Of a stretch of 64,000 nucleotides of DNA, positions 21,281-46,609 are shown one piece after another; within the stretch, counting starts at the first letter, position 1; each line of letters starts with the position of its first letter. Made by a program: the position numbers and the translations under genes. The DNA is from Acidobacteriaceae bacterium (GTDB lineage Bacteria > Acidobacteriota > Terriglobia > Terriglobales > Acidobacteriaceae): contig PLXE01000112.1 of assembly GCA_003151335.1 (NCBI GenBank), positions 131,555 through 195,554 of the forward strand, read 5' to 3'. Under the pieces are notes generated by a model that was given only the letters and a program-made list of their open reading frames with translations, had not been told where the DNA came from and made no database searches.

Positions 21281-21285
21281 GCTGT
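21281..21285. repeat. 5-bp target site duplication, left copy
   Basis: GCTGT immediately left of the element's terminal TG. The same five bases follow the terminal CA at 36999-37003. Mu-type transposition makes 5-bp duplications. Confidence 0.85.
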
Positions 21286-21332
21286 TGTGGCTACAGGAAT
21301 TAAATGCAATAAAAACAGGAATTGCGTGAAAT
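21286..21332 (+). promoter_or_regulatory. Left end with two transposase-binding-site candidates
   Basis: L1 ACAGGAATTAAATGCAAT (21293-21310) and L2 ACAGGAATTGCGTGAAAT (21315-21332) are direct repeats 22 bases apart, pointing inward from the terminal TG. The right end has the same motif inverted. Confidence 0.8.
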
Positions 21333-21476
21333 AACGGGCGATTCGGCTGGGCAAAAAAATGCGGCCGCTTGGCGTAGCCTAAAGCCAAGCAATTCAGTGG
21401 AGCGATGATCCATCACAGCCAACGCAGAGTGAGGGACTCTGTACTACCTGAGAGGGCCGAAGGTGATGGCCCAGCT

Positions 21477-21752
21477 TCAACCGGACGGAGTAGCTGTCGG
21501 CGCCAGTCCGCCAGGAACTATAGGCAAAGGGTTGGGCTCCTCATCTCTTCTTCCGCAGTATGGGCAACGGGGAGCTTTGCGCGCCGCTGCTCGCCGATCG
21601 CGTTGCCGCTCCGCAGCGTCTGCGTTCTTGCATGGCCTCCCACAGAACCTCATTCGATAGTTCGGTACTACCTTCCCACATTTCGGAAGCTGGCAGATCC
21701 TGGCAATCAACTCGACACCCGCACTCTTCTGCTCGTTCGCGCGGAGGTGCAT
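21477..21752 (-). CDS. Small Cys-rich (zinc-binding) protein
   Basis: A 91-residue basic protein. Cys residues are arranged ICQLPKCGK, then RFCGRPCKN, then RCPYCGRR, a pattern expected of one or two zinc fingers, with an Arg/Ala-rich helix (ADAAERQRDRRAAARK) between. The first two pairs resemble the short RYC-xx-C fingers seen in small regulators. It is the last gene of the element's minus-strand arm, next to the left end, where Mu-like phages often keep small accessory genes. The function is not assigned. The start at 21752 overlaps a 46-codon frame ending at 21707. Confidence 0.5.
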   Translation of the reverse strand: MHLRANEQKSAGVELIARICQLPKCGKVVPNYRMRFCGRPCKNADAAERQRDRRAAARKAPRCPYCGRRDEEPNPLPIVPGGLAPTATPSG

Positions 21753-21847
21753 CCTTCCCGCCTGACAACACCCTCTTTCAATAATTCAGCGGCCTGCGTT
21801 GCCGTCAGGTGAATCTTCGACAATGGCTCATGCACGATGTTAGGCAT
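21707..21847 (-). CDS. Possible 46-aa peptide coupled to gp27-like gene
   Basis: Starts ATGCCTAA, so its ATG overlaps the stop of the gp27-like gene. The product (KIHLTATQAAELLKEGVVRR in its middle) looks like the first helices of an excisionase- or MerR-type HTH. It overlaps the Cys-rich gene in another frame; a frameshift fusing the two is possible. Evidence is limited to the coupling and the protein-like N-terminus. Confidence 0.35.
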   Translation of the reverse strand: MPNIVHEPLSKIHLTATQAAELLKEGVVRREGCTSARTSRRVRVSS

Positions 21848-22544
21848 TGCTCACCGGAGGCAATCCGAAGACGCGCTCACGCAAGCGGTTGATATCGTCG
21901 ACCGTGATCTCCTTGCCTTTGCCCACCTTCGCCGAGAGTTTCTCCATGTCCTTCTGGAGGCGCGCGCGCTGGAGCTCGGAAGTCTTCACCAACTCGTCGA
22001 CGCGCTGTTGCTCTGTCGCGGCCAGCTGCTCGCGCACCGTGTTCTTGCGCGCCTCCTGGGCGAGCTGGGCCAGCGCCAGTAGGTACTTGGCCCGTTTTTC
22101 TGGGGCCTGCGACTCCAGCATGGCGAAGATCACGTTGGAGGCGCCCTTGAGGGCCGCCTCGTCTAAGTGCTCAATGCCACCAGCGGCGAGGACTTCCACG
22201 ACCTCCTTCGCCTGTGCAGATACCTTAAGAAACTCTTCCCTCACCTGCTCGTAGCGCAGGTCGTACCAACGCAGCAGCGTCGAAGCCGGCAAACGCCGCG
22301 TTGGAAAGAGCTCCAGCACTTTGGCATCAAGCGAATCCCAATCGACAAATCCATCCCTGCCCAGCCGGGCCTTCCAGTCCTCTTTATAGGGCAGCGCTGA
22401 AAGGCGCTCGATCTCCGGCCAGGTCATTGGATAGTCGGCGCGCAGGGCCTTGATGGCCTCACCTACCGACGGAGGGAGAGCGTCGATGGTCAAGCGTTGG
22501 CGCTTCAGCCGCGCCTCTCCGACTTTTGGCCGCTGCTTTGACAT
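21840..22544 (-). CDS. Mu gp27-like protein (DUF3486 family)
   Basis: A 234-residue protein resembling Mu gp27, the presumed small-terminase-position protein of transposable phages. Shared features are the N-terminal LTIDALPPSVGEAIKAL, a segment on picking a site by a HTH (RRLPASTLLRWYDLRYEQVR), and the long C-terminal helices. Residues about 170-215 are a charged coiled coil (REQLAATEQQRVDELVKTSE). In Mu-like phages the large terminase and portal genes follow at once; here only small genes and the element's left end follow. Confidence 0.75.
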   Translation of the reverse strand: MSKQRPKVGEARLKRQRLTIDALPPSVGEAIKALRADYPMTWPEIERLSALPYKEDWKARLGRDGFVDWDSLDAKVLELFPTRRLPASTLLRWYDLRYEQVREEFLKVSAQAKEVVEVLAAGGIEHLDEAALKGASNVIFAMLESQAPEKRAKYLLALAQLAQEARKNTVREQLAATEQQRVDELVKTSELQRARLQKDMEKLSAKVGKGKEITVDDINRLRERVFGLPPVSNA

Positions 22545-22547
22545 AAT

Positions 22548-22865
22548 TCAGAGAACCAGGACGAGTGGGTCCTTCATATAACCCTCCAACAGGCGCAGTC
22601 CCGTAGTCGTGAGCTCGATGCGCTCCATCCACCTCGTGCCCTTCCGGTTGTCAACTTTTTCCTCGTACTTGACATAGTCAGCGTTGTGGAGTTCCTGCAG
22701 CAGGGTGAAGACGTAGTCCTGCGCCACAGTGAACCCCATCCTCGTCATCATGGCCCAAAGGGTCAGGTCGTCCATGTGCGAGCGCTGCCCGTAGTGGTTG
22801 TTGCGGACGAACTGCAGGATCACGCCGCGGTGGCGGGCTAATTGAGTGGTCTCAATCGCGTCCAT
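22548..22865 (-). CDS. Winged-helix phage protein (105 aa)
   Basis: A 105-residue protein whose layout, three helices and a beta-wing (RHRGVILQFVRNNHYGQRSH, DYVFTLLQELHNADYVKYEE, RIELTTTGLRLLEG), is that of a winged helix. Similar small winged-helix genes sit just before the gp27 gene in many Mu-like prophages, as here (2-bp gap). It overlaps the preceding DUF3467 gene by 14 bases, indicating translational coupling. Confidence 0.65.
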   Translation of the reverse strand: MDAIETTQLARHRGVILQFVRNNHYGQRSHMDDLTLWAMMTRMGFTVAQDYVFTLLQELHNADYVKYEEKVDNRKGTRWMERIELTTTGLRLLEGYMKDPLVLVL

Positions 22866-23196
22866 TTATTTTGTCCCCATCTTTCATGGTCCCGTTCTTA
22901 GCCTCGAAGCGCGCGACGGCCTCCGCGATCCCCTGACTCACCCGCTTGGCTTGCTGCCATGAGACGGTTACAGCTACTCGCTGCGTGACCACTCCTGGCA
23001 GTGCCGTGGTTTTCGCGTTTCCTTCCGGCCATTCGAAAGCGGCATCAAAGATCTGTCCCTCCGCCGGGACGATCTGGCCGAAAGCAAGCCTGAGATCGTC
23101 TCTGGTGGTACTGAGCGCAACATGGTTGCTGTAAATCTCGGGGAGACCCCCATCGGGTTCGACCAACCTGAAGGCTTTGAGTTTGTCTTTTGGCAT
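22852..23196 (-). CDS. DUF3467-like protein, copy 1
   Basis: A 114-residue protein from the ATG at 23196 (GGGA upstream). It has the DUF3467 pattern: an N-terminal EIYSNHVALSTTRDDLRLAFG strand-helix followed by VAVTVSWQQAKRVSQGIAEA and a C-terminal helix ending EAKNG. The neighbour at 23225-23590 is a clear paralogue. DUF3467 proteins are small, of unknown function and not standard Mu genes. An upstream extension to 23313 is not needed. Confidence 0.65.
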   Translation of the reverse strand: MPKDKLKAFRLVEPDGGLPEIYSNHVALSTTRDDLRLAFGQIVPAEGQIFDAAFEWPEGNAKTTALPGVVTQRVAVTVSWQQAKRVSQGIAEAVARFEAKNGTMKDGDKINGRD

Positions 23197-23224
23197 TCCC
23201 TTGTCTGCCTCTTCCTGCCGCTCA

Positions 23225-23590
23225 CTAATTAGTGAAGTCTTGGCGGCTACTCTGTGGCCCTGGCTCGGCCCCCGGACACACGGGCTGCTTAATTTCACCG
23301 TTAGCCGCCTCAAAGCCTTGCACGGCCTCTGTTAGCATCCCGACCAGGATTTTCAAGTCAGACCATGATGTCGTTACGGCCGCGCGTTCTTCGGCCAGCA
23401 GCTTGGTCCGTTGGTTGCTCCATCCTCCGAGCTTCCCATCAGTTGCCGCTGGGCCATCTGAAGCAACGATAAGCTGTGAGAACGCTATACGAACGTCGCG
23501 CCCCGTCCAGCCCAGCGAGAAGAGGTTGCTGTACACCTCGCAGGGATGCTGGCGCTCAGTTGAGGGGGAGCCATCCTGATTTTTGTTCAT
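23225..23590 (-). CDS. DUF3467-like protein, copy 2
   Basis: A 121-residue paralogue of the downstream gene. It shares EVYSNLFSLGWTGRDVRIAF with EIYSNHVALSTTRDDLRLAF, and AAVTTSWSDLKILVGMLTEA with the equivalent helix, ending EAANGEI. The ATG at 23590 is preferred; a longer frame reaches into the tape-measure gene. Tandem duplication is likely; the role is unknown. Confidence 0.6.
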   Translation of the reverse strand: MNKNQDGSPSTERQHPCEVYSNLFSLGWTGRDVRIAFSQLIVASDGPAATDGKLGGWSNQRTKLLAEERAAVTTSWSDLKILVGMLTEAVQGFEAANGEIKQPVCPGAEPGPQSSRQDFTN

Positions 23591-23627
23591 TGCCTCTGTT
23601 CCCTTTCCCCGATAGAACTGCTCAGCC

Positions 23628-26600
23628 TCAGGCACCGAGGGCCTTCCCTGCATAGCGGTTGGCGTTGGCGTTGAGGTGCGACTGAATCTCTTGCGCGCCG
23701 CCCGAGCGCAGGAAGCGCGAAAAGTCCTGCACGTCGAGGGCGCGAATATGTACATGCAGATGGCTTTCGCCGCCGCCGCCGTTTCCTCCGCCGCCCAGTC
23801 CCAGGCCGTTGCCGCGCGAGATGTCCGCGCCGCGGTTCATGGCGTCGAGCGTCGAGCTGTGCCGCATGTTGGTCATCCGGTCCATCATCCGTTCGCCCAC
23901 TTGCGCGTGAATGTAGCCCGAGTTTGGCCCGGTGGAGAGGTCCCCGAAATGCCTAATTACTCCGCCCGAGTCGTACTGTGCCGCTTGCATGGTGATGGCG
24001 CCGCTGCGATCGGCGTTCTGCTGGCGCTGCATTTCGTCGATGGCCGCTGCGATCTCCGGCACGACCTTGCGCTGGTACACGCCCACCGCTCCGCTGCCCC
24101 ACTGCTTGGCCTGCGCGTCGGCCTTCATCTGCAGCAGGTTCATGTCCTGCATTCCCTGGTCGAATCCCACCTGCGCCGCGGTGTAGGCCGTTAGTTCTTT
24201 CGTGATGGCCGGAACGACCTGCTCGTCGTTGTACTTGCGCATCTGGCTGGCGCCGTGGTCGCCAAACAACGAACCAAAGAGGCCCAGTATCGCGCCCCCG
24301 ATCGCCCCGATTGCGGTGCCGATGCCGGGTAGGATCGCGGTGCCAAGGGATGCGCCGGCCATCGCGTCGTTCAGGACTGCGCTCCCGATATTTGGGTTGC
24401 CCCAGTTTTGGGCAATGGTCATGCCTGCACCGATCCCGGCCATGCCAATCCCCATCCCCTGTGCGAGCCCGAAACTGCTGCCGCTGCTGTCGCCGGAAGG
24501 CGGCGTTCCGAGCACACCTGCATCGTTGGTCGGTGGCTGATTGATGTCAGTAGGTTGGAAGCCGCCCGGTACGCCTGGGACTCCGTTCGGATTGAGCATC
24601 GGGGCCGCGCCCGTCCCGCCGCTCATAAAATTCTGCACTCCGCTGCCGAAGACTCCGCCGCTAGCCAGAGTGCCAAACAGGCTGCTGCTCTGGCCAACGG
24701 CACCCGCAGCCGGTCCGCCGATCGCTGAGGCCATTCCGGGCACTGCGCCCATCACTCCGGTTGCGCCGGTCGGTGCAGCATTGATGTCAGAAGGTTGGAA
24801 GCCGCCGCCCATCGCGCCCGTGCCGCCGCTGCCGAACATGTCGGTGAAATCTCCAGTGCCACCGCCCGGAGTCAAACCACCGCCGCCGAAGCCGCCCGCG
24901 CCAACTCCGCCCCCGCTGGCCAGGCTGCCGACTTGCATCGCTGCTGAGGTCAGCGACTGCGCGGCTGAGGCCAGCATCGTGCCCGACGATGACAAAGTTG
25001 TGCCGGCTGCATTCAGCGTCGAGCCTGCGCTGCTGAGCGTGCTGCCGGCTGCGCTTAGTGTCGAGCTTCCGCCCGCTCCGGCCGCGCCGTGCTGCGGCGC
25101 AAAGATGCTGCCCAGCGCGGTCTTTGGGTTGGTGCTGGTGGACATCTCCGGATTCATGCCGAAGAGCACCGACAGGGCGCTCCCCATCGGGCCTTTAGCC
25201 TCCGTGATTTGCATCATCCAGTTGGCCAGCATGTCCATCATGATTTGCTTGCCGCGCTGCTCTATATATTTCGAGGGGTTATCGAGGAGCGAAGTCAGCG
25301 AGCCTGCCAGTTTGTCGCGCGTCTGCTGCTGCGCCTTTTCCATTTCCGCCGCAGCTCGGTTTGCCTCTGCCGTGACGCGCTGATAGTACTGGTTCCATAC
25401 TTGCTCTTGCGCCGCCGCCTGTTCTGTGGTCAGCCCATGTTGCTGGTCCGCAACTTGCTTGAAGTAGGCAAGCTGCGCCTCCAGATCGGCTTTGGCCTTC
25501 TGTGCGGTTTCATCGAACTGTTCGCGGATCAACTCCTGCGCCGCCAGCCACGGCGGAAGGCTGGCCTTGGCGGTTTCGGCATTGATGCGCGCGATTTCCT
25601 GATTGTCGCGCTCGCTCATCTGCTGGCGTTCGCGCTGCGCGTTTTGATCAACGCCGTTCAGGGCAGCCTGGGCACGCTGCTCAGCGGCAACGCGCTCCGG
25701 GTCCTGAGCTGGAAGCTGACCATAGCCCTTGGTGAATTCCTCAGAGATGCGGGCCTTGGTGCGCGCGGCATCGGCTTCAATGCGAGCGTAGCCGGTTTCC
25801 ATCTGCGCGTCGGCGCGCATGGACAGGTCGGCCATCTGCTGATTGAATTGCCCGTGGGCGTCAAGGATCTCGGCATCGGTTTGCTGTTCCAGCGCGAGGG
25901 CGCGCTTCTGCTTCTCCTCGTCGGGGACCGCCCGGTTTGCGGGGTTCGCCCACAGGTCCGTGACCCGCTCATTGCCCTCGGCCCTGATTTTCGCCACGCC
26001 GGTCAGCCCAGCTTGTGCAGCCGTCTGCTGGATCTTCTCGGTCGCGAATTGCTCCTCGGCGATCTTGTCCAACACCTGCTGGTCGTACTTCTCTCGGATG
26101 GCGGCGATCTCCCGGATGCCGCCCTTTGCTGCCTCGATGGCCTGCTGCTCCTGGCTGCGAATCAGTGCGACGCCGGCGAGGTGGGAATTGGTAGCCGCGT
26201 TCTGCGCCGTGGTGACTGCGGCTGTGTCGCTCCGCGATTGAGCCGCATCGGCGGCTTGGCGCTGCGCCAGGTGCGTCGCCTGCGCATCGTGCTGCTGTTG
26301 GTCGTACTGCCCCTTCAACGCCTCCGGCGTAATGTGGAGCCCCGCCTTCTGCGCTTCGGCCGATGTGTTGATGGTCTCCGCTAGGGCTGCGGCATTAGCC
26401 CGCTGCTGATCGAAGTGGAGCTTGGAGAGGGCGTCGGCGTCTTTCTGGGCCTGGGAATTCTTGGCGTAGCCTTCCAACTGCCCAGCGTGCACGGTTGCTT
26501 GATTGCGCAGCGCCTGTTGGGCCTCTTCGTCCTGCAGTTTGGTCTTGTGCTCATGCAGCTGGCCGGCCTGCCCCATCTTTTTGGCTTGATCCGCATCATT

Positions 26601-27293
26601 AGCAGTGGTGAAGGATTGCGTCTGTCCGGGGGTGAATCCAGTGGAACCATTCACTCCCCATATATCCTCGGTCCCCTGCGCCCCATACCGGTTAAATTCG
26701 GCTACGCTCTCGCGCTTTTGTTTTAGGTCGTCAATCTGCTGGCCGATGTCCTGTAGCAGCGCACTGGTGGTCTCCAGCGACGCAGTATCAAATAGCTTCT
26801 GCTGTGCGGCCTCCGCTGCCTTCTGTTGGTAAGCCTCAACCTCTTTTTCCACATCGAGCCATTTTTCATAGAGCTGGTAGGCGCCCTCGCCGAGCTGCTC
26901 GAAGATGTTCACGGCGCCGATGGCGATGAACAGCCCCATCGTCGCTTGCAGCCCCGCGGCCAGCGTTGCATTGCTCCCAATCACACGCGCCATGGCTCGG
27001 GGAATGCGGAGGCCCATCTCTTCGGAGGCCAGGCGCACGCTGTCCATTTTGCCGCGCAGGTTCTCGTATCCCGCGCCCGCAGCAGCAGCCGCGCCCGTGG
27101 CGTTCGAGGCGAACGTCGCGCCGGCCGCACCGGCGTGCTCCAGCGCCGGAGCCATGGTCGCCATTTTGGCGCTGGCCGCGGTGCCCGTCGTACCCAGCGT
27201 GTTCAGCTTGGTCTCGACGTTCGCGATCACACCGCTCGACGCATCCACCGTCTGGATGGTGATCGTCACGACGCCATCAGTAGCTCCTGGCAT
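23628..27293 (-). CDS. Phage tail tape measure-like protein
   Basis: At 1,221 residues it is by far the longest gene of the element. The N-terminus (VVTITIQTVDASSGVIANVE) is the usual tape-measure opening, followed by a hydrophobic helix (ATLAAGLQATMGLFIAIGAV) and long Gln/Ala/Glu-rich helical stretches (about 150-700) fit to span a tail. From about 740 it becomes Gly/Ser/Ala-rich with internal repeats (STLSSAGSTLNAAGTTLSS; two copies of FQP-DIN-xPT) and then a glycine-zipper membrane segment (GMGIGMAGIGAGMTIAQ). The C-terminus has YDSGGVIRHFGD and a Gly-rich linker. No tail tube or sheath genes are nearby. Confidence 0.8.
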   Translation of the reverse strand: MPGATDGVVTITIQTVDASSGVIANVETKLNTLGTTGTAASAKMATMAPALEHAGAAGATFASNATGAAAAAGAGYENLRGKMDSVRLASEEMGLRIPRAMARVIGSNATLAAGLQATMGLFIAIGAVNIFEQLGEGAYQLYEKWLDVEKEVEAYQQKAAEAAQQKLFDTASLETTSALLQDIGQQIDDLKQKRESVAEFNRYGAQGTEDIWGVNGSTGFTPGQTQSFTTANDADQAKKMGQAGQLHEHKTKLQDEEAQQALRNQATVHAGQLEGYAKNSQAQKDADALSKLHFDQQRANAAALAETINTSAEAQKAGLHITPEALKGQYDQQQHDAQATHLAQRQAADAAQSRSDTAAVTTAQNAATNSHLAGVALIRSQEQQAIEAAKGGIREIAAIREKYDQQVLDKIAEEQFATEKIQQTAAQAGLTGVAKIRAEGNERVTDLWANPANRAVPDEEKQKRALALEQQTDAEILDAHGQFNQQMADLSMRADAQMETGYARIEADAARTKARISEEFTKGYGQLPAQDPERVAAEQRAQAALNGVDQNAQRERQQMSERDNQEIARINAETAKASLPPWLAAQELIREQFDETAQKAKADLEAQLAYFKQVADQQHGLTTEQAAAQEQVWNQYYQRVTAEANRAAAEMEKAQQQTRDKLAGSLTSLLDNPSKYIEQRGKQIMMDMLANWMMQITEAKGPMGSALSVLFGMNPEMSTSTNPKTALGSIFAPQHGAAGAGGSSTLSAAGSTLSSAGSTLNAAGTTLSSSGTMLASAAQSLTSAAMQVGSLASGGGVGAGGFGGGGLTPGGGTGDFTDMFGSGGTGAMGGGFQPSDINAAPTGATGVMGAVPGMASAIGGPAAGAVGQSSSLFGTLASGGVFGSGVQNFMSGGTGAAPMLNPNGVPGVPGGFQPTDINQPPTNDAGVLGTPPSGDSSGSSFGLAQGMGIGMAGIGAGMTIAQNWGNPNIGSAVLNDAMAGASLGTAILPGIGTAIGAIGGAILGLFGSLFGDHGASQMRKYNDEQVVPAITKELTAYTAAQVGFDQGMQDMNLLQMKADAQAKQWGSGAVGVYQRKVVPEIAAAIDEMQRQQNADRSGAITMQAAQYDSGGVIRHFGDLSTGPNSGYIHAQVGERMMDRMTNMRHSSTLDAMNRGADISRGNGLGLGGGGNGGGGESHLHVHIRALDVQDFSRFLRSGGAQEIQSHLNANANRYAGKALGA

Positions 27294-27303
27294 TGCGGCT
27301 TAT

Positions 27304-28398
27304 TTACCTCGCGTCCGGCAGAGTCAATTCGGGGTGCTCGACTGCGCACTGCGAAAGTGCCTCCCCGAAGGTAATATGATCTTCGCGAGCGCGCTCGTTC
27401 GCGAGATCGGTCAATTTCTGCCCGTTCGATTTGGGGGCCTCTTCCTCGAAGCTGATGACTCCATCTGGGAGCGTGAGCTTTGGATTGTCTGCTGCGACCT
27501 GCGATAAAGCCTCACCGAAGGACAATGTTTTGTCTTCCCGCGCGCGCTGCGTCGCGAGTTCACTGAGGCGCTCGGAATTTGTTTGGAAGCGGAACGTCTC
27601 GCCGTTCTGCTCTACCGAATGGCCCCGGCTCGGGACAGTCAGTTCAGGATGCGCGGCGGCGGTTGCGATAAGTGCTTCCGCGAATGAGATGTGCTGCTCA
27701 TGCTGGCGCGCCACAGCAAGATCATTCAACTTGACAGAGTTTGGATCGAAGGGGAACGCCCTGCCGTGATGTTGCGCCGCCGGGCGTTTTGTTGGCCCGT
27801 CCGTGACGATGAATTCGACGCGACCTGCATCCCCGGCGTTGAACTGTACAACCTCGCCGGCACTGTCCTTGTTTGCCAGCTTTGTGAGGCCCGCGTCAGT
27901 TGAGTCCCCCTCGAGCATCACTCCCCCGACCCCGTACACTCGCGGCGGTAGGAAGCCGTAACCTGTGAGGGATGCTCCTTTTGCTGGATCTCGTTCGAAG
28001 CGCATGGACCGGGCAGTGCGGCCACCAAGTTTTTTTGACTTGAGGAGCTGATCGAAGCGGGGATCTACCCGGACTAACTTCCCAGAGAGTTTCGCGCCAT
28101 CCCGCCGCAACGCGCTAACGTTGGCGACAATAGGCCCGTCGCTGTTCGTGCGGCCAAAACGAACGGGAATGTGGTCAGCGATACTCGAAGGTTGAAAATT
28201 GGAGACCATGGAGTCGAGGTCCGCTTTGGTGAGAGGCACGTTATCATTGCCGGTGTCCGCCAGCGGGACCCATTGCCCTTCTTCATAGTGCAGAGCTGGA
28301 GAGCCGTCATCACTGCGTTGCGCGGAATCGTTGCCTCCAGTTTGCGCCCCGCCTCTCTGGGCTATGTCCATCTTTAACCAGTCGATCTTGTCAGCCAT
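27304..28398 (-). CDS. Mu gpI-like prohead protease/scaffold protein
   Basis: A 364-residue protein (ATG at 28398, GGGCGAGAG upstream). The N-terminal part (SMVSNFQPSSIADHIPVRFG, then KSKKLGGRTARSMRFER) has the layout of Mu-type I proteins, which act as capsid protease and scaffold. The C-terminal third holds three repeats of about 33 residues, each with an (F/S)FxEAL core and ending HPELT/NPKLT (around 245-275, 290-320 and 330-360). The repeats probably form the scaffold helix region. The tape-measure gene starts 10 bp beyond it. Confidence 0.7.
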   Translation of the reverse strand: MADKIDWLKMDIAQRGGAQTGGNDSAQRSDDGSPALHYEEGQWVPLADTGNDNVPLTKADLDSMVSNFQPSSIADHIPVRFGRTNSDGPIVANVSALRRDGAKLSGKLVRVDPRFDQLLKSKKLGGRTARSMRFERDPAKGASLTGYGFLPPRVYGVGGVMLEGDSTDAGLTKLANKDSAGEVVQFNAGDAGRVEFIVTDGPTKRPAAQHHGRAFPFDPNSVKLNDLAVARQHEQHISFAEALIATAAAHPELTVPSRGHSVEQNGETFRFQTNSERLSELATQRAREDKTLSFGEALSQVAADNPKLTLPDGVISFEEEAPKSNGQKLTDLANERAREDHITFGEALSQCAVEHPELTLPDAR

Positions 28399-28521
28399 GC
28401 TCTCGCCCTTTCTGCCCCAGCTCGGGAACTCGGGCGAGGGAGTGGCTCGCCCGTATCTCCGTTTCGCCATCCAGGGAGGCAAAGGATCTCCCCGCGAAAA
28501 GCTAACTCGAAACCCTCAGAA

Positions 28522-28555
28522 CGCGGGGGGAGGCTGGCCGGCCCCGACCCCCGCG
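28522..28555. other. GC-rich hairpin in the 212-bp gap upstream of the protease gene
   Basis: CGCGGGGG (28522-28529) and CCCCCGCG (28548-28555) make an 8-bp stem. Another pair, CTCGCCC/GGGCGAG, lies at about 28403-28439. The gap 28399-28610 has no gene and could hold a terminator plus a late promoter on the minus strand. Confidence 0.4.
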
Positions 28556-28610
28556 CTGTTCCGCTTGTCGAGGAGGTTACTCGCAAGCGAAAACTCTGTA
28601 CTCCAAAATC

Positions 28611-30207: not shown

Positions 30208-30214
30208 TCTCTTC

Positions 30215-30242
30215 TTGACTTTCCGGCTCCGGGCACTACAAT
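30215..30242 (+). promoter_or_regulatory. Promoter of the transposition operon
   Basis: TTGACT (30215-30220) and TACAAT (30237-30242) are 16 bases apart, a good sigma-70 promoter, 77 bases before the first plus-strand gene. It begins eight bases beyond the repressor start, so repressor binding here would control both directions. Confidence 0.6.
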
Positions 30243-30318
30243 CATCTCATGCGTTGTTCACCGCCCATGACGGGCAGTACACTAAGCACGATTAAATGCT
30301 TCCCGAGGCCAACCCACA

Positions 30319-30711
30319 ATGACTAAGATAAGCTCGGAAATCGCTAACGACCAGCAGTATGAGCCCCGGGACGCGTTTGAGGCTGATGTCCGCCGGATGC
30401 TGAAGGCATTGTTGCCCAGGAAAAAACGCGCGGAGCTGGCAGCGGCCCTCACCGACATCCTAGATAACGAGCCCGCGCGAAGGATCACGAAGGCCCAACT
30501 CGACAACTTCGTCGCCGAAGGCAAGTGCCAGCCGCGGCTCCCACTCTCAGTGGCGAAAGCACTTTGCCAGTTGATCGGGCACCGCTCGCTCACTCGATAT
30601 CTGAACACCGAAGAAGAGCTGGCGTTAATCGCAATCGGCGAACACGCGAGAGCGAACAGGAAACTCCTCACTCAAATTGCTACACCAAAGGTCAAGGCAT
30701 GCCGGCATTAG
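30319..30711 (+). CDS. Phage early regulatory protein (CII position)
   Basis: A 130-residue, mostly helical protein at the head of the early operon. The sequence (RRITKAQLDNFVAEGKCQPR, then LPLSVAKALCQLIGHRSLTR) is consistent with a CII- or Ner-like DNA-binding protein, but I cannot fix a family. In Mu the equivalent place is held by Ner. ATG at 30319. Confidence 0.6.
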   Translation: MTKISSEIANDQQYEPRDAFEADVRRMLKALLPRKKRAELAAALTDILDNEPARRITKAQLDNFVAEGKCQPRLPLSVAKALCQLIGHRSLTRYLNTEEELALIAIGEHARANRKLLTQIATPKVKACRH

Positions 30712-30920
30712 AGTTGGGTAGCTCGATTTTGATTGCACGGGCCGCGAACCGGCCAGGTGATGCCCTTGCCTCACTTTCCGGGTTCAGCCCCGCCAATGCC
30801 TCTTGTCGCATGGTACACACGGGTCCTCCTCAATGCTCGCGTTTGGTCAGACTGCTTCTCAGAGACCTTTTTTCGTTTTCTGAATTTCGGCTGCTGCGGG
30901 CCTTGGGGGTGCTGAGATGA
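30699..30920 (+). CDS. Small uncertain ORF between early regulator and HTH gene
   Basis: A 73-codon frame that overlaps the previous gene by 13 bases and the next by ATGA, so coupling favours it. The product (MPALELGSSILIARAANRPG) is not recognisable. An alternative 51-codon frame at 30760-30915, rich in aromatic residues (WYTRVLLNARVWSD), overlaps it; only one is likely real. Confidence 0.3.
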   Translation: MPALELGSSILIARAANRPGDALASLSGFSPANASCRMVHTGPPQCSRLVRLLLRDLFSFSEFRLLRALGVLR

Positions 30921-31420
30921 AAAGCTCTGGGCCACAGCGCAGCGCCGCAGATCGGCTCATGATAATTGCCGCCATGCTTCCGCAGAACCGCGAGAGTGCT
31001 ACCGCTCAAGCCTCGCAGCCGCGCAATTGCCATGGCCTCTTCTCCGCTGTCGGTTTGGCACAAGGGCAGAGGCCGTCACTCGTTTCGATTGCGAAGCAAA
31101 TTGCGGTGGACAATAGTATGGGTGAAAGCACCGTATGGAACTGGTACCGCCGCTATCAGCAAGGCGGCTACGAAGCGCTTGGCAGGAAGCGGCGCGCCGA
31201 CCGTGGGCGGGCCATTTTCCTCGACCGATACCCGGAATTGCTTCCCATGATTGATGTCCGGCTGTCTGCTGGCCTGAGCCCCAAAGCAGTTTGGAAGTCG
31301 CTGCTCTGGATTCGCGGCCTCCACGGGCCTTCATACGACGTCGTACTCCGTTACGCCAGGGGCGGCTACCGCTTTGACGGGGAATCTCCCGCCCACGCAG
31401 GATCGGCGGCGACACTATGA
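30917..31420 (+). CDS. Stand-alone HTH protein related to transposase N-region
   Basis: A 167-residue protein. The middle (STVWNWYRRYQQGGYEALGR, followed by KRRADRGRAIFLDRYPELLP) is closely parallel to a segment of the following transposase (TIYRWVRRFTKRGLVGLADQ, followed by ARSDRGNSRFFEKYPDAATL). It thus looks like a separate copy of the Mu-type HTH/binding subdomain. It is coupled to the transposase by ATGA. It could assist or modulate end recognition. Confidence 0.65.
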   Translation: MKSSGPQRSAADRLMIIAAMLPQNRESATAQASQPRNCHGLFSAVGLAQGQRPSLVSIAKQIAVDNSMGESTVWNWYRRYQQGGYEALGRKRRADRGRAIFLDRYPELLPMIDVRLSAGLSPKAVWKSLLWIRGLHGPSYDVVLRYARGGYRFDGESPAHAGSAATL

Positions 31421-33555
31421 ATGGCCGCTGGCTTAGCCGCAAAGAGGTCCTGTCCGCCACGGGCTGGAGTGCACGTACCTTACCGCGCAAGGTGCACAGC
31501 GGGGAGCTTAAAACGCGCCAGGTGCGGGGCATTCGAGAGTACTCCCTCGACTCACTGCCGTTCGAATTCAAGGTGCGACTACAGCAGCAGCAAAGCGCGG
31601 CGGCTAACACATCGGAATTGGCTCTGGTTGCTTCGAGCAGTGCGCCAGAGCAGCCCGCGGTGGAGGAGGCGCCGGCAACGCAGCCGCCGGTGAAGGTTGC
31701 TTTCGCTTCCCCTGAGCAAGAGGCGCAAGCCCGCGAGCGTTATTCCAAGATCGAGCCCCTGATCCGATTTCAAGCCGAGGAGCGATCAAACCCGGCCGGG
31801 CAATTGCACCTTGCCCTGTCTCTGGTGCTACCCGATGGGAGCCCGGTTACAACGCGCACCCAGATGCGCCTCTACCTCGCCAACAAGCACGGCCTCTCCG
31901 ACATTACGATTTATCGATGGGTGCGCCGATTCACCAAACGTGGGCTGGTCGGGCTCGCTGACCAGGCGCGCAGCGATCGTGGCAACTCTCGCTTCTTTGA
32001 GAAATATCCCGATGCAGCAACCCTTGCTGCCTACCTCTACCTCGGGCAAAGGCAAAGTGCGCGCGCGGCCTATGAGGCCATCCAGCGCGATTGTTTGTTG
32101 CTCAAACTGAAGCCGTGCGAGCTGCCCTCGTACGAGACGGTGCGCGCATTCCTTAAGCGGACTCCCGAGCCACTGAAGCTGCTGGCGCGCGAAGGCGCAA
32201 GGGTCTATCGCGAGCGCTGCGCTCCGTACATCTCACGCGGATACGCGGATGTTTTCTCGAATGAGATCTGGGTATCCGATCACGCCCTGCATGACGTGGA
32301 ATGCCAGAACGACTGTTTTCTTGATGCTGATTTCGGAACCCCGATCCGACTGCGCCTCACATGTATTCTTGACTTCCGCTCGCGCTTTGTCGTGGGCTAT
32401 TCATGGGCATGGGAAGGAAGTTCCCGGTCCATCACCACGGCGCTTCGCCGGGCTGTGGCCCTGTACGGCCCAGCCGAAGTTTTCTACTGCGACAACGGCA
32501 AGGACTATCTAAAGGTTGGGCGCGGAGCGATGCCGGCCTATCTGCGCGAGAGTGGTGAGGCTCCCACAGAGTGGTACATGCACGAGATGGGCGCGATTGA
32601 GGAAATGGGTGTGCTGGCGCGGCTGGGCATGACTGTGCAGCACTGCATCGTGCGTCACCCGCAGAGCAAGCACGTTGAACGGTTCTTCCGCACGATGCAT
32701 GAGCGCTTCGATAAAAAGTTCCCGACATACACCGGAGGGTCTCCAGATCGCCGTCCAGATTTCACCACGGAAGCGATGGCCGAGCACCGCAAGCTCCTGC
32801 GCATCGGTGAGCCGGGCAGGTCGCTGCACCCACCGGCGAGCGCCTTCATTCGCATGGCCCTGGCCTGGCTGGATCAGTACCACTCCACTCCGCACAGTGG
32901 CAAAGGGATGGCCGGCCGCACTCCGCGCCAGGTCTTCGAGCAGGAGCGCAACCCACGGCAGAAGCCGGTGCCTGCTCCCGAAGTGCTGGCGCTGATGCTG
33001 GCAGAACGCCAGCGGCGCAAGGTGCAGGAGTGCTCGATCGTGCTGGAGAAGAAGCGATATATCGGCGACGATCAGGTTTCCGCCGCCATGCTGCATGAAC
33101 TCAATTCCCGCGAGGTGGTAGTGGCCTTCGATCTCCTCGACTTGGAGAAGGTCGCCATCCTGGACGACGAGGGCCGGCTGATTGCTTGGGCGCGCCAGGA
33201 AAACTATGTAACACAGTCCGCGGATGCGAACGAAGAAATTGCGGCTAGCATGCAGCAGCGCCGCCACCTGGAGAAGCAGACGCGGCACTTGATCGGCGGC
33301 ATCGCTGCTGCGGCGCGGGCCAACGGTGCGCGCACTGATGTGGAGCATCTCGCAATGCGCGCTGGCGTCGCTGGAGTTGGTGACGTCGTGACCCAGCGGC
33401 GCCCGCGGTTGCGTCCCGATAACACTGCGCTGGCCCCACTCTCAGCTTGCGAGATCGCGAGGCGCGCACTCGGGCACGCGCGCGTGCGTTCGGACAACTC
33501 GGCCGTGGCGCCGCTGAGCGCCGCCGAGGTTGCCCGGCGGTTCAGGGAAGGGTGA
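31417..33555 (+). CDS. MuA-like DDE transposase
   Basis: A 712-residue transposase. The N-terminal MuA-type HTH (LSRKEVLSATGWSARTLPRK) is followed by an Ala/Pro/Gln linker and an end-binding HTH region. The catalytic core shows D288 in IWVSDHALHD, D359 in FYCDNGKDY and E421 in SKHVERFFRTMH, the DDE triad with spacing like MuA. The Mu-C barrel region follows, and the C-terminus carries two copies of a R-DN-A-APLSA-E-ARR motif (about 668-690 and 693-712). It is followed by a MuB-like ATPase gene four bases later. Confidence 0.93.
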   Translation: MNGRWLSRKEVLSATGWSARTLPRKVHSGELKTRQVRGIREYSLDSLPFEFKVRLQQQQSAAANTSELALVASSSAPEQPAVEEAPATQPPVKVAFASPEQEAQARERYSKIEPLIRFQAEERSNPAGQLHLALSLVLPDGSPVTTRTQMRLYLANKHGLSDITIYRWVRRFTKRGLVGLADQARSDRGNSRFFEKYPDAATLAAYLYLGQRQSARAAYEAIQRDCLLLKLKPCELPSYETVRAFLKRTPEPLKLLAREGARVYRERCAPYISRGYADVFSNEIWVSDHALHDVECQNDCFLDADFGTPIRLRLTCILDFRSRFVVGYSWAWEGSSRSITTALRRAVALYGPAEVFYCDNGKDYLKVGRGAMPAYLRESGEAPTEWYMHEMGAIEEMGVLARLGMTVQHCIVRHPQSKHVERFFRTMHERFDKKFPTYTGGSPDRRPDFTTEAMAEHRKLLRIGEPGRSLHPPASAFIRMALAWLDQYHSTPHSGKGMAGRTPRQVFEQERNPRQKPVPAPEVLALMLAERQRRKVQECSIVLEKKRYIGDDQVSAAMLHELNSREVVVAFDLLDLEKVAILDDEGRLIAWARQENYVTQSADANEEIAASMQQRRHLEKQTRHLIGGIAAAARANGARTDVEHLAMRAGVAGVGDVVTQRRPRLRPDNTALAPLSACEIARRALGHARVRSDNSAVAPLSAAEVARRFREG

Positions 33556-33559
33556 CTAG

Positions 33560-34570
33560 ATGGCGACACTGATGAGCCAAGGCGCGATCCATAAACTGCG
33601 GCTGGAGTCCAACCCGAAGGACGGCCGGGAAGCGACGCGGGCGCGACTAATCGACTACCTGCAGCGCACGGGGCTGACCCAAGCCGAGTTTGCGAGGCGG
33701 GTTCAATACGCGCATAAAACCCTGAGAATGTTTTTGAGCGACAAGTGGTACCACGTCGCGGGCAACTCCGATTACATATGTCGCGCGATCAACAAATACA
33801 TTGGCACCCATCCCATAGCGCCGGCGCCTCAGCCCTTCGGCGAAATCTACGATACCGCCAACGTCCGGGCCATGCGCGAGACCTTTAAGGCCCTGCTGCG
33901 CCGCCCCGTGGCTTACATGATCTACGCCCCGCCGGGGAGCCAGAAGAGTTTTGTACTGGAGCACCTGGTTGGGGAATTGAATGGCCAAGAGTCCGCAAAA
34001 CGCGAACCCACGCAGGCAGCATTCTACTTGTACGCAATAGCTCAGATGACTCCCTCTCAGGTTATGAAGGCGGTCACGATCGCCTGCGGCGCCTCCTCCG
34101 CGGGCGACAGGATGAGCATGGCACGCAACCTGGCGCATGACTTTCAAGGCCGGCGCGTTCTGTTGGTCATGGACGAGGCACAGCACCTCTCCATCAACGC
34201 CTTCGAGACGCTGCGCGTTCTGCTAGACCAGCCCCCGCACTTCTCGCTTCTGTTCGCCGGTTCGCATGACCTGAAGCAGACCTTCGACAAATTTTCAGCA
34301 ACGCTGGAACAGTGGAATAGCCGCATCGTGGACAAGGTTCGGTTGCCAGGAGTGAAAGCGGACGAGGCCGAGGGGATCATCCGGCGCGAGATCGGCGAGT
34401 TGCTGAAAGCAGGCACGGCGGAGAGCGCGCGAAAAATGATCCGCGCCCTAATCGCTGGCGCCACGGTGAAGGATCAATTCGAAGAAGGCCGGCAGTACGT
34501 GAACATTCGGACCTTAAGTAATGCTTTAGCTGAGATCAAGCTGCAGTCTGGGACTGTGAGAAATGACTGA
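33560..34570 (+). CDS. MuB-like AAA ATPase (transposition target protein)
   Basis: A 336-residue protein equivalent to MuB. An N-terminal Cro-like HTH (LTQAEFARRVQYAHKTLRMF) is followed by the ATPase domain: P-loop region IYAPPGSQKSFVLEHL, in which both glycines of a canonical Walker A are replaced (A and Q), and Walker B RVLLVMDEAQHLS. A C-terminal helical domain ends at 336. MuB-type proteins deliver target DNA and stimulate MuA. The start lies four bases after the transposase stop. Confidence 0.85.
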   Translation: MATLMSQGAIHKLRLESNPKDGREATRARLIDYLQRTGLTQAEFARRVQYAHKTLRMFLSDKWYHVAGNSDYICRAINKYIGTHPIAPAPQPFGEIYDTANVRAMRETFKALLRRPVAYMIYAPPGSQKSFVLEHLVGELNGQESAKREPTQAAFYLYAIAQMTPSQVMKAVTIACGASSAGDRMSMARNLAHDFQGRRVLLVMDEAQHLSINAFETLRVLLDQPPHFSLLFAGSHDLKQTFDKFSATLEQWNSRIVDKVRLPGVKADEAEGIIRREIGELLKAGTAESARKMIRALIAGATVKDQFEEGRQYVNIRTLSNALAEIKLQSGTVRND

Positions 34571-35150
34571 AGCGAAACCCATCTCGGCACAGCAACTGAA
34601 GCGCCTGCAGACGCAATACGCGCGGTTTGCCGCGGCCTCCGCCGATCCGCGCACGCGATCGCGCGAGGAACGCTTGTTGTGGGCATCCCTCATTGTGGGA
34701 CGCACGGTCGCATCATTCAGCAAACTGACGAGCGAAGAAGCGGCGACCGCGATCATGCGCTTGCAGCAAGATACGCCGCAAACTAAGGCTCGTCCCAAGC
34801 CGATGGACCGTGACGCCGCGGAGCGGCACGCGAAAGACGGGCGCTGGGATGGCGAGAAGTTTCGCCCCACGCCGCAGATCGCGTCGGAGTTTGACCTAGC
34901 GAACATTGCAAAGTACTACACGCGCCTAGGCTGGGACCGCGACACCTTCGATCGTTGGCTGCGTTCGCCGCGCTCTCCGTTGGGTCGGAGATCACAGCCG
35001 CAGATCCGCACGGTGGCCCAGGCCAACCGGGTACGCTGGGCGTTGAAAAAGATGCTTCAGTCTCGCGGACTGTGGGCAGCGGAGCCACCGCAACCTGCGC
35101 GTGGGGAAAGCATTGAAGGATGTGAAACAAATGTGATGTCTGCGGGATAG
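34563..35150 (+). CDS. GemA-like / DUF1018 position protein
   Basis: A 195-residue protein overlapping the MuB-like gene by eight bases. The pattern ISAQQLKRLQTQYARF, then SREERLLWASLIVGRTVASF and LTSEEAATAIMRLQ recalls the GemA (gp16) family of Mu-like phages; the C-terminal part (TVAQANRVRWALKKMLQSRG) also fits. This is the usual place for that gene after A and B. Homology is inferred from order and pattern only. Confidence 0.55.
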   Translation: MTEAKPISAQQLKRLQTQYARFAAASADPRTRSREERLLWASLIVGRTVASFSKLTSEEAATAIMRLQQDTPQTKARPKPMDRDAAERHAKDGRWDGEKFRPTPQIASEFDLANIAKYYTRLGWDRDTFDRWLRSPRSPLGRRSQPQIRTVAQANRVRWALKKMLQSRGLWAAEPPQPARGESIEGCETNVMSAG

Positions 35151-35233
35151 GCCGCCCTGGCACGCAAGCCAACACTGCCGCGGTACTTTTTAACTATTGT
35201 TCGCGTGTCTCCAGCGCTGGCGGAAAGCCCAGC
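35142..35233 (+). promoter_or_regulatory. Structured leader, copy 1
   Basis: Shares with 35892-35975 the blocks GGATAGGC, CCTGGCACGCAA, TCGCGTGTCTCCAG and GCTGGCGGAAAGCCCAGCA. CTGGCACGC (35157-35165) can pair with GCGTG (35203-35207) and CCAG (35211-35214), leaving a TCT bulge. GCTGG/CCAGC (35216-35233) forms a hairpin with loop CGGAAAGC. The hairpin around the first block is weaker than in copy 2 (GCGG/CCGC, GGC/GCC). The candidate ribosome site AAAGAGG and the ATG at 35253 lie just after. Confidence 0.6.
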
Positions 35234-35252
35234 AGAGAAGAAAGAGGCTGTG

Positions 35253-35876
35253 ATGATATCAAAATCGAAAGCGAAGGTGCTCCCACAAAACTCAGGGCGG
35301 ACCTATTGGGATAGGGCAAGCGATGAAATATTTGCTGATCTTCTCACCGCTAACAGCTGCACAGAAAGGATAGCCCTGGGAGATGCGTGTATGGGGAGAG
35401 GGTTGCTGTCGGCTTCCATCAGTGATGCCTTGGCCCTTGTTTACTTCCTTGCCGAGACCGTTGTAGCAGCTCAGGTGGCTGCGCGGCGATATGGCCTACA
35501 GGCTAGCGTGCTGCTCGCGATTGCCAGGCTGCGCTCTGGGTACGATCCTGCAGACTGGGCGGCAGATCATGGCTACCCTGTGCCCCCAGGCACATCTGCC
35601 CTTGACCGGATGCATTTCATTGAGCAGTCATTCATCGAAGAGGCTAGGTCTTTGGTGACAAAGCGCAGCCTTAGCCCAGCGATGCTAGTGGCCGGTGATC
35701 CGGCGGCCTACTTTAAGAAGTTGTGTGAACTCGGTTGGTGTGAGCCCTTCGAGATGTTAGACCTTCCCGGGCTGGCGCGCGACTTTAGTTTTGCTGATAA
35801 GCCCGTTGCGCTGGAGATGCACGTAGATCCAAGGAACCCTGGACTCACACCTTCAGTCGCGGCGAATGCGTGCTGA
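35253..35876 (+). CDS. Hypothetical, glucosaminidase-like helical motif, paralogue 1
   Basis: A 207-residue protein from the ATG at 35253 (AAAGAGG upstream). A GTG at 35205 lies inside the structured leader and is rejected. Residues about 70-95 (AQVAARRYGLQASVLLAIAR, then LRSGYDP) recall the YGxPASVxLAQAxLESGWG helix of glucosaminidase-type lysozymes, but the catalytic Glu position is Arg. The same kind of motif is in the next gene. Probable roles would be binding or regulation rather than hydrolysis. The family is not recognised. Confidence 0.5.
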   Translation: MISKSKAKVLPQNSGRTYWDRASDEIFADLLTANSCTERIALGDACMGRGLLSASISDALALVYFLAETVVAAQVAARRYGLQASVLLAIARLRSGYDPADWAADHGYPVPPGTSALDRMHFIEQSFIEEARSLVTKRSLSPAMLVAGDPAAYFKKLCELGWCEPFEMLDLPGLARDFSFADKPVALEMHVDPRNPGLTPSVAANAC

Positions 35877-35891
35877 GTGCCGAGGGTTAAA

Positions 35892-35975
35892 GTGGGGATA
35901 GGCTTCCTGGCACGCAAAGCCTACCCCCACGCGCTTAGTTGTCGCGTGTCTCCAGTGGCTGGCGGAAAGCCCAGC
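35892..35975 (+). promoter_or_regulatory. Structured leader, copy 2
   Basis: GTGGGGATAGGCTT (35892-35905) pairs with AAGCCTACCCCCAC (35917-35930) in a 13-bp stem with one A.C mismatch. Its 11-base loop carries CTGGCACGC (35907-35915), which pairs with GCGTG (35944-35948) and CCAG (35952-35955). A GCTGG/CCAGC hairpin (35958-35975) follows. The layout allows a pseudoknot or two exclusive folds. The next gene starts 20 bases on. Confidence 0.6.
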
Positions 35976-35994
35976 ACGAAAGGCTGTGAGCCCG

Positions 35995-36816
35995 ATGTCT
36001 AAGAATTCCCTGAACCCCTCTCCTACTCAGAACGAGCAAAGGGAAAAACCCCTCGACGCGAACACCCAACTGTGGCTGCTCACTTTGAAAAAGCTTCCCG
36101 CTCTCGACGGGGAATTTGTCCAGGACGGAAGCGACCTGATTCCCGTGTCCGTAATGGAGTACTTCTCCGTGTTGCTAGTCCTCTCGCGGATCGGACTCGC
36201 CGCACAAAATGCCCAACGGGTGTACGGTGTTTCCGCGTCCTTCCTGATCGGTAAATATCTCGTGGACTATGGTTGGATGCCCGAGCATTCGGGTAAAGAA
36301 GCGGGGCAGCTATTTCTAAAAGAAGCAGAGACCCTGAGCCGCAACTTCCCCGCCGATTTGGACCTACTGAGTCGCCCCGTCGAGTACGCGATCGCCCTGG
36401 ACAAACGCGGCGGCTTAGTAAATGCGCGCGACGGCGAGTCCGGTAGGACTTACGTCTCGGACGTGGCTGAGCGGATTATCGACCATGGGCTCCTTGAATG
36501 CGACTACCGCTACGGGACTGGCGGCCTGTATGACCTCGGCAAGGATCCACAGTTCCCCAGGCCAACCGATCTTTGCCCAGAGGATGTCGCCGCGGTTCTC
36601 GGGTGCTCTGTCGAATCGGCTTCCCGTCTGTATGAATCAGGTGAGTTGACAGGGTGCAGCCAGAGGCCCTGCACCTCTGCCCACTGGACGGTAAGAGGTT
36701 CTCAGCTTCGCGCCTACGTGCAGCGGGACCAGTATAGAAAGTTTCGTGCCACTCCTGCACCGGTGGCCCCGAGCTCGAACCGGTTGGCGCTGGTGTCGCC
36801 ATCGCATCTCCCGTAA
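35995..36816 (+). CDS. Hypothetical, glucosaminidase-like helical motif, paralogue 2
   Basis: A 273-residue protein (ATG at 35995; an in-frame GTG at 35986 is possible). AQNAQRVYGVSASFLIGKYL then VDYGW matches the glucosaminidase-like segment of the preceding gene, again without a proper catalytic Glu (Asp in its place). It continues with GGLYDLGKDPQFPRPTDLCP and a C-terminal region VAAVLGCSVESASRLYESGE that looks like a small excisionase-type HTH. It is the last gene before the element's right end. Confidence 0.5.
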   Translation: MSKNSLNPSPTQNEQREKPLDANTQLWLLTLKKLPALDGEFVQDGSDLIPVSVMEYFSVLLVLSRIGLAAQNAQRVYGVSASFLIGKYLVDYGWMPEHSGKEAGQLFLKEAETLSRNFPADLDLLSRPVEYAIALDKRGGLVNARDGESGRTYVSDVAERIIDHGLLECDYRYGTGGLYDLGKDPQFPRPTDLCPEDVAAVLGCSVESASRLYESGELTGCSQRPCTSAHWTVRGSQLRAYVQRDQYRKFRATPAPVAPSSNRLALVSPSHLP

Positions 36817-36858
36817 GTCATTGATTCTAGGTTGGCCGTCTGTCGCTTTGCGACATTT

Positions 36859-36998
36859 ATTGCATTTAATTCCTGTTTTTTTGTCGCCCTCCATTTTTCC
36901 AACAGGTGCGCTTTCCCCCGCTTAAACACCGCCAAAAACCGCGCTTTGCCGCGCTTTGCCGCCCATTGCCGCCATTTCACTTAATTCCTGTTCTCACA
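36859..36998 (-). promoter_or_regulatory. Right end with transposase-binding-site candidates
   Basis: On the minus strand R1 ACAGGAATTAAGTGAAAT (36991-36974) sits seven bases from the terminus and R2 ACAGGAATTAAATGCAAT (36876-36859) about 115 bases inward. R2 is identical to left-end L1. The stretch between them has no gene. Confidence 0.8.
36941..36973. repeat. Tandem decamers GCGCTTTGCC at the right end
   Basis: GCGCTTTGCC at 36941-36950 and 36951-36960, then GCCCATTGCC at 36961-36970 and GCC. They abut R1 and could be part of the end structure. Confidence 0.55.
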
Positions 36999-37003
36999 GC
37001 TGT
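36999..37003. repeat. 5-bp target site duplication, right copy
   Basis: GCTGT directly after the terminal CA, identical to 21281-21285. Confidence 0.85.
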
Positions 37004-46426: not shown

Positions 46427-46609
46427 AGAACTTCCTCCGCAGTATGGAATGGTGTTCATTCTAGCGCGTTGTTCGTCGGCAGTGGGTGCGCGACACAGGA
46501 ATTTCGCGGCTGACGCGCATGTGCCGCGAAGTTGACGCTCCATTCGCGTAACCAATACAATCCGATTAGCGCAAGCGCAGCGCAGCGCGTTCGCAGCGGC
46601 CCGCGCTGC

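Follow-up and report, generated by a model that had tools for sequence, protein, structure and literature searches.

Introduction

Phage satellites such as P4 and the Staphylococcus aureus pathogenicity islands (SaPIs) are about one third as long as their helper phages, and phage-inducible chromosomal islands (PICIs) carry an integrase. The PICI-like elements (PLEs) integrate by means of a recombinase and have a lytic helper. Another kind of dependent element is mini-Mu, a set of laboratory deletion derivatives of phage Mu in which the ends together with the A and B genes suffice for transposition, and for which a helper provides packaging. Here, we describe a 15,713 bp element that occupies positions 21286–36998 of a 64 kb stretch of an Acidobacteriaceae genome (assembly GCA_003151335.1, contig PLXE01000112.1; hereafter "the window") and which is on balance probably a mobile phage satellite that transposes in the manner of Mu.

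PICIs have specific attachment sites (PMC6092414). The PLE satellites of the Vibrio phage ICP1 were reported in 2026 to encode a tape measure that is built into chimeric tails and is needed for efficient transduction of the PLE, and candidates for such proteins were found in other satellites (PMC12987554). A strict definition used by some authors asks for an integrase, attL and attR sites, and no structural genes (PMC13376191). The families treated in a 2024 review are the P4-like satellites, PICIs, capsid-forming PICIs (cfPICIs), PLEs, phage-inducible chromosomal minimalist islands (PICMIs), and a few newer ones, none of which is presented as transposing in the available part of the review (PMC11389934). 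Our searches of the open-licence full texts of PubMed Central (PMC) brought up no report of a Mu-type transposable satellite, although one may exist elsewhere, and no title relevant to acidobacterial Mu-like prophages.

The element shares with Mu and Mu-like phages a DDE transposase, a MuB-type ATPase, TG...CA ends with repeated sites, a 5 bp target duplication, a repressor, and a gp27-like gene. It differs from them in being about one third as long as two measured relatives, in that family and late-gene profile searches revealed no gene for a large terminase (TerL), portal, capsid, or baseplate, and in having p223 (a coiled-coil protein) and endolysin-like proteins without an active site. Unlike mini-Mu, it is natural, occurs across genera, and has conserved genes and regulators of its own. 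It resembles PICIs, SaPIs, and P4-like satellites in size and in carrying packaging or head-modifying genes; in contrast to a PICI, it has a DDE transposase and a target duplication, with no integrase match in family searches of its proteins, and it is not a PICI by that measure. As do PLEs, it encodes its own tape measure, the comparison covering the role of that protein only, but it inserts by a DDE transposase. The transposase family and the ATPase partner are also those of Tn7/TnsB-type and Mu-type cargo transposons; unlike these, the element carries phage morphogenesis genes.

Results

Ends and insertion site

A first-pass annotation of the window had placed both ends of a Mu-like element to the base, with a GCTGT duplication on either side, and both placements were confirmed by direct reading and by scans for the end pattern (Table 1). 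From 21286, the left terminus reads TGTGGCTACAGGAATTAAATGCAAT, and the right terminus, inverted, reads TGTGAGAACAGGAATTAAGTGAAAT from 36998. The two are inverted relatives of one another (TGTGGCTACAGGAATT vs. TGTGAGAACAGGAATT), with a second copy of the site further inward on both sides. The window contains five copies of ACAGGAATT, compared to a mean of 0.28 in 100 shuffled sequences (largest count, 2), and four of the five sit at the two ends of the element; ACAGGAATTAAATGCAATAAA occurs once per end and was not found in the shuffles. When a degenerate end pattern (≤2 mismatches) was run against the 4.65 Mb genome, the two matches were the two element ends, and the control gave none. A scan of both end zones for TG...CA termini with a duplication ranked the GCTGT pair at the top with a score of 33, the next pair scoring 22. 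The fifth copy of ACAGGAATT lies outside the element at 46495–46503, ~100 bp from tRNA-Gln (46610), and is probably a chance occurrence.

The insertion was also said to split cleanly the spacer between ftsY and a UBP zinc-finger gene, with an empty site to be looked for in relatives. The FtsY search matched all nine genomes of the genus (our own included), and ftsY and the UBP gene are adjacent in each of the eight congeners. In the four closest (G115, G173, G187, and G139), the two flanks, when joined, can be aligned across the junction and contain the target once; it reads ATTCGCTGT in G173, G187, and G139 and ATTCTCTGT in G115; the spacers of the other four are too diverged for base-by-base reading. 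Within the genus as sampled, the insertion is specific to its own genome, where the element is single-copy (no further copies in 4.65 Mb). The host is an acidobacterium: the named sequences closest to its FtsY, at 97–98% identity, come from four metagenome-assembled Acidobacteriaceae genomes, isolates palsa or bog.

The assignment to the Mu type stood as well. The residues that we take to be the catalytic triad of the transposase (D288, D359, and E421) are invariant in 20 of 20 MuA rows, and TnsB is the sole solved-structure match of the protein. The neighboring gene encodes an AAA ATPase, and TG...CA ends, the 5 bp duplication, and the empty site complete the picture; the reading frames of the transposase, ATPase, and repressor are intact, as had been claimed. 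The description of the element as "complete" holds for a transposon but not for a phage, for which most tail genes are undetected along with the large terminase, portal, and capsid.

Compact elements and full-length phages

The transposase was used to search 200 genomes of the family, of which 21 (including our own) had matches, and neighborhoods were taken from 16 of the 21; G013, G094, G116, G160, and G183, with partial transposase matches, were left out. Full Mu-like phages were present in G119, G032, G031, G047, G140, G015, and G187 and on two IMG/VR contigs (L032 and L033), several of these nine loci being cut by contig or fetch ends. Both ends could be placed in G032 (43,320 bp) and in G119 (42,743 bp, from an end pair that ranked third, with 29 vs. 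two pairs at 30, and was chosen for its motif, which only the late end fits). Compact elements with exact ends and exact 5 bp duplications were found in other genera, in G109 (14,489 bp, GTCGT), G049 (14,887 bp, CGGTG), and G387 (13,428 bp, ATGGC). The further copies with different duplications that the first-pass annotation had proposed to look for are represented between genomes by these related compact elements, and none was found within our own genome. A further compact relative, in G139 of the same genus, is ~11 kb long, partly decayed, and at a different locus from the window element; its ends were read by eye from repeats, with a duplication that is off by one base. The automatic end search did not place the ends in G139, G047, G031, G015, or G504. 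Pieces with p223 at contig edges came from G155, G050:C7, and G055 (with p223 and MuA on separate contigs in the last), a partial prophage without p223 from G050:C12, and MuA loci with no late genes in the portion covered from our own genome and G115.

The element thus belongs to a group of ~11–16 kb elements that have further genes in common with one another, and whose end motifs are shared with Mu-like phages of ~43 kb. The size ratio (13.4–15.7 kb to ~43 kb) is near one third. The compact elements have p223 in common, and most also a tape measure and an endolysin-like protein with an altered active site. A late-gene matrix showed that they retain only scattered morphogenesis genes, with TerL in none. 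A motif derived from the ends had 10 matches in 1.03 Mb of the sequences collected, nine at element ends and one (G030) unexplained, and none in the reversed control; because the motif was drawn from those same ends, the matches there are partly by construction. The MuA proteins of the window and G139 are 69–71% identical, and that of the window is 48–59% identical to those of the nearest full phages. The G139 ends (TGTGAG/TGTGGC followed by TTTGCAATTT, by eye) differ from those of the window at ~70% transposase identity, and the end site that is recognized may have changed quickly between the two.

A pattern scan of named genomes gave no transposase relatives. Searches of IMG/VR found the two relatives noted above (L032, L033) by transposase and one, 30% identical, by protease; an IMG/VR match to p223 was judged by eye to be a chance match within a tape-measure-like frame and was rejected. 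None of 50,697 phage records had similar DNA. A similar transposase was present in 145 phage records, none matching over >80% of its length, and the eight matches listed were 25–28% identical.

A gp26–gp27 cassette shared with a phage, and other late-type genes

The only morphogenesis-type genes detected in the element are the tape measure, the protease-like gene, and gp26–gp27. The gp27 homolog of phage G119 matches Pfam Phage_Mu_Gp27 and directly precedes TerL, and in the transposable phage KS10, the gene adjoining TerL is annotated as small terminase (PMC2628397). Along 1,038 bp (element bases 556–1593), the nucleotide sequence of the gp26–gp27 cassette is 87.4% identical to that of the full phage G187:C31, unlike MuA, which is just 41% identical between the window and G187. 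On either side, the DNA matches G139 instead (element bases 265–548 at 79% and 1589–1903 at 84%). With phage-like DNA between two G139-like segments, gp26–gp27 looks as if it was swapped in at gene borders, and the cassette appears to have been imported rather than kept.

The 1221 amino acid (aa) frame has no direct family match of its own, and is named from its relatives: that in G109 matches the phrog_24 tape measure (E 3e-7), and a profile made from the frame together with two relatives hits the full phages G119, G032, and G031 where their tape measure is located. Open tape-measure frames in four compact elements span 1221, 1186, 1051, and 909 aa. The gene is downstream of p223 in the window, G387, G109, G155, and G055, and upstream in G049; in G139, only its start is left, and it is absent from the stretch seen of G050:C7. 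For the protease-like protein, the predicted structure is poor, and the best match of p223 among solved structures has an E of 0.03, to coiled-coil-like chains. The zinc-ribbon-like protein is 54% identical to its counterpart in the compact relative of G139 and has shorter matches in some full phages. The p223 element of G155:C60 (L063 2032–3903), which lies at the edge of its contig, has a gene for a Mu-type major capsid protein directly before p223, and some members may therefore form their own heads.

Endolysin-like proteins

Five aligned endolysins of full phages carry ILES as well as a segment that reads [NH]N[FY]FG. As for two further ones, that of G015 has IES with NNFFG, and that of L032 has ILEYG without an intact NNFFG. 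Among the p223-bearing Mu-type elements, we found eight endolysin-like copies in seven of eight (none in G049), and no copy has an intact ILES/NNFFG pair. The Glu is replaced in six copies, and G387 and G109 retain a Glu in that column. NNFFG is intact in none: there is no counterpart in the two window copies, G139, G155, and G387, the segment is diverged in G109 and G055, and it reads NNDFF in G050:C7. The match of the group to the peptidoglycan hydrolase FlgJ is weak (E 0.65), and so the link to endolysins is drawn from the similarity to phage endolysins. With both the Glu and NNFFG missing from the two window copies, neither has the marks of an active endolysin; another lysis gene is possible.

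Distribution of p223 and the MuA tree

A two-row profile detected p223 in 8 of 398 genomes of the family. With eight rows, the profile matched 10 of 399 genomes of the class, three of them with E values of just 4e-5 to 7e-4 (our own genome is included in both counts). It was absent from nine genomes chosen for full phages (eight) or transposons only (G115), in a search run with a positive control. When just the loci found by transposase are counted, p223 is in four of four compact elements (window, G139, G109, and G049; the window and G139 being close relatives) versus none of nine full phages; G387, which was found only through p223, would bias the selection. Relatives of p223 also occur beside tyrosine integrases, in G504:C39 (L111 1560–8670) with a primase and a head protease, and in G025:C15 (L067/L058, L113) with a tape measure. 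These two loci may be satellites of the integrase type or ordinary prophages.

In the MuA tree, the compact elements do not form a single group; their MuA proteins nest among those of phages. Six compact rows (including G155) entail four label changes, three of them forced, that is, on well supported branches, with G030 labeled as full though its TerL is on another contig. Either p223 joined different transposases or it persisted while transposases were exchanged. The same scatter, with at least three forced changes, is what one would see if the elements were defective-interfering derivatives resembling mini-Mu, recently and repeatedly generated from resident phages, and their end motifs are of the same kind as those of full phages. 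We nevertheless consider such an origin highly improbable, given that p223 is common to the compact elements and did not turn up in any of the nine genomes searched that had been chosen for full phages or transposons, and that the closest full phages, at 48–59% MuA identity, are much too distant for a recent derivation.

Satellite, decaying prophage, or transposon

By a broad definition, in which a satellite has an incomplete set of virion genes together with genes that act on packaging or assembly, the gene content of the element fits, the action of these genes on a helper being putative. Several observations weigh against a satellite, however. The strict definition given above does not apply, since the element has a transposase and a duplication as well as tape-measure-like and protease-like genes. 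The structure of p223 is modeled reliably for no more than roughly its first 100 residues (the N-terminal helices). With relatives in G025 and G504 at loci that may be ordinary prophages, p223 is perhaps not confined to satellites. A search of 10 genomes for a Mu-like TerL found one only in G187, which carries a full phage, and not in G115 or the eight genomes with p223 elements, our own among them; in genomes with full phages, the same gene was recovered in seven of eight (G031 being the miss). Finally, the set of morphogenesis genes retained varies from one element to the next, a pattern that independent decay would produce as well, and the relative in G139 (L034 13400–14401, L042), in which MuB is interrupted by a stop and the tape measure is truncated, is probably decaying.

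These last points would suit a decaying Mu-like prophage, from which internal deletions removed most virion genes and in which the remainder is transitional. Most parts of the element have phage relatives, and a partial prophage without p223 does exist (G050:C12). Even so, decay seems to us unlikely for the window element. Its compact layout is shared with G139 at another locus and must predate both insertions, both of its ends are intact, p223 is found again and again in elements whose MuA genes are distant, and gp26–gp27 was seemingly gained and not kept. In addition, the sequences of the window/G139 pair indicate that seven genes are under purifying selection, with dN/dS values of 0.17 for MuA, 0.16 for the early protein, 0.48 for the endolysin-like protein, 0.27 for p223, 0.24 for the protease, 0.32 for the DUF3467 protein, and 0.51 for the zinc-ribbon protein; these come from simple counting in one pair only, with a dS of ~2 for p223 and the protease, which lessens their weight in favor of a satellite.

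The lack of a detectable helper in our own genome, where many Mu-type transposase loci have no late genes beside them, would agree with a self-sufficient Mu-type transposon that moves within the cell or is transferred by chance, and that uses its phage genes for immunity to, or interference with, Mu-like phages. We rate this a little less probable again than decay: open frames for a tape measure, a protease, and a small-terminase-like protein would be difficult to account for if they played no part in virions, and the size is near one third of that of the phage. A comparison of seven small or unclassified proteins with PADLOC gave no convincing defense match (a single one had an E of 0.007); this counts against known defense families only.

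Features of the element and other MuA loci

TABLE 1 Features of the element, with positions in the 64 kb window
Feature	Position	Strand	Basis or remark
Target-site duplication GCTGT, left copy	21281..21285		
Late-gene end, TGTGGCT terminus and two ACAGGAATT sites (21293, 21315)	21286..21337	+	
Zinc-ribbon-like protein, 91 aa	21477..21752	−	Weak Pfam match
gp27-like protein, probable terminase small subunit	21840..22544	−	No direct family match
gp26–gp27 cassette	21841..22878	−	DNA match to full phage G187:C31
gp26-like protein	22548..22865	−	phrog_436, E 0.005
DUF3467 protein	22852..23313	−	78% identical in G139
Second DUF3467-like frame	23225..23755	−	Below Pfam cut-off; start uncertain, overlaps neighbors
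Tail tape-measure-like protein, 1221 aa	23628..27293	−	Named via relatives
Head maturation protease/scaffold-like protein, 392 aa	27304..28482	−	phrog_976, E 2e-9, residues 81–154
p223, coiled-coil protein, 223 aa	28611..29282	−	Common to compact elements
Helix-turn-helix (HTH) repressor-like protein, 313 aa	29266..30207	−	HTH_3, E 7e-10; PHROG repressors
CII-like regulator, 130 aa	30319..30711	+	phrog_2345, E 7e-9; divergent from repressor
HTH protein resembling the DNA-binding part of MuA, 167 aa	30917..31420	+	
MuA-type DDE transposase, 712 aa	31417..33555	+	phrog_310, E 1e-87; Mu-transpos_C; TnsB match
MuB-type AAA ATPase, 336 aa	33560..34570	+	phrog_296, E 5e-21; AAA_22
Early protein, 195 aa, common to full and compact elements	34563..35150	+	No family match; presumably in the position of GemA
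Endolysin-like protein, 223 aa	35205..35876	+	Arg at position of catalytic Glu; no NNFFG counterpart
Second endolysin-like domain with weak HTH_17, 276 aa	35986..36816	+	Asp at Glu position; no NNFFG counterpart
Subterminal end site, perfect inverted copy of 21293–21313 (21 bases)	36856..36876	−	
Transposase-side end, TGTGAG terminus	36974..36998	−	
Target-site duplication GCTGT, right copy	36999..37003		

Eleven further MuA-like matches, some of them partial, lie on ten contigs of our own genome, G000 (C83, C6, C54, C45, C34, C84, C7, C98, C11, and C37), many at contig ends, as expected of repeats. The four that were tested form a tight clade in the MuA tree, and no late genes were seen beside the MuA loci in the nine contigs read (C37 was left out). 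On G000:C45 (L046, 553–12482), the genes next to a MuA/MuB pair form a type I-G cas operon with Cas3g, a Cas8g2-like protein (below cut-off), Csb1, Csb2, and a Cas4/Cas1 fusion, which suggests a Mu-type transposon that carries or borders a CRISPR system.

Discussion

Both the relatives of the element and the gene pair it has borrowed from a phage suggest that it may travel by hijacking Mu-like phages of full size, and we infer that it is packaged by such a helper. In the absence of a phage, the element would stay silent under its own repressor. With a Mu-like phage growing in its cell, the element would replicate by its own transposition, and gp26–gp27, as a probable small terminase, would bring the large terminase and portal of the helper to the DNA of the element. 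The protease/scaffold-like protein and p223 would act on head assembly, and the element's own tape measure might give rise to chimeric tails, as in PLEs. Lysis would be left to the helper, as the endolysin-like proteins are without an active site. That there is a satellite group of this kind in several acidobacterial genera, with transposition of the Mu type in place of site-specific integration, replication by that transposition, exchange of small terminases with the phages exploited, chimeric tails, and lysis given up, we hold to be an evenly balanced proposition.

If a satellite of this kind is indeed at hand, it could insert almost anywhere, since it transposes, and might dispense with replication by the helper. 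Such elements would have been overlooked by searches that start from an integrase. They would also be a further case of satellite tape measures and a natural counterpart of mini-Mu, and the swap of gp26–gp27 makes the idea of packaging by a helper phage directly testable.

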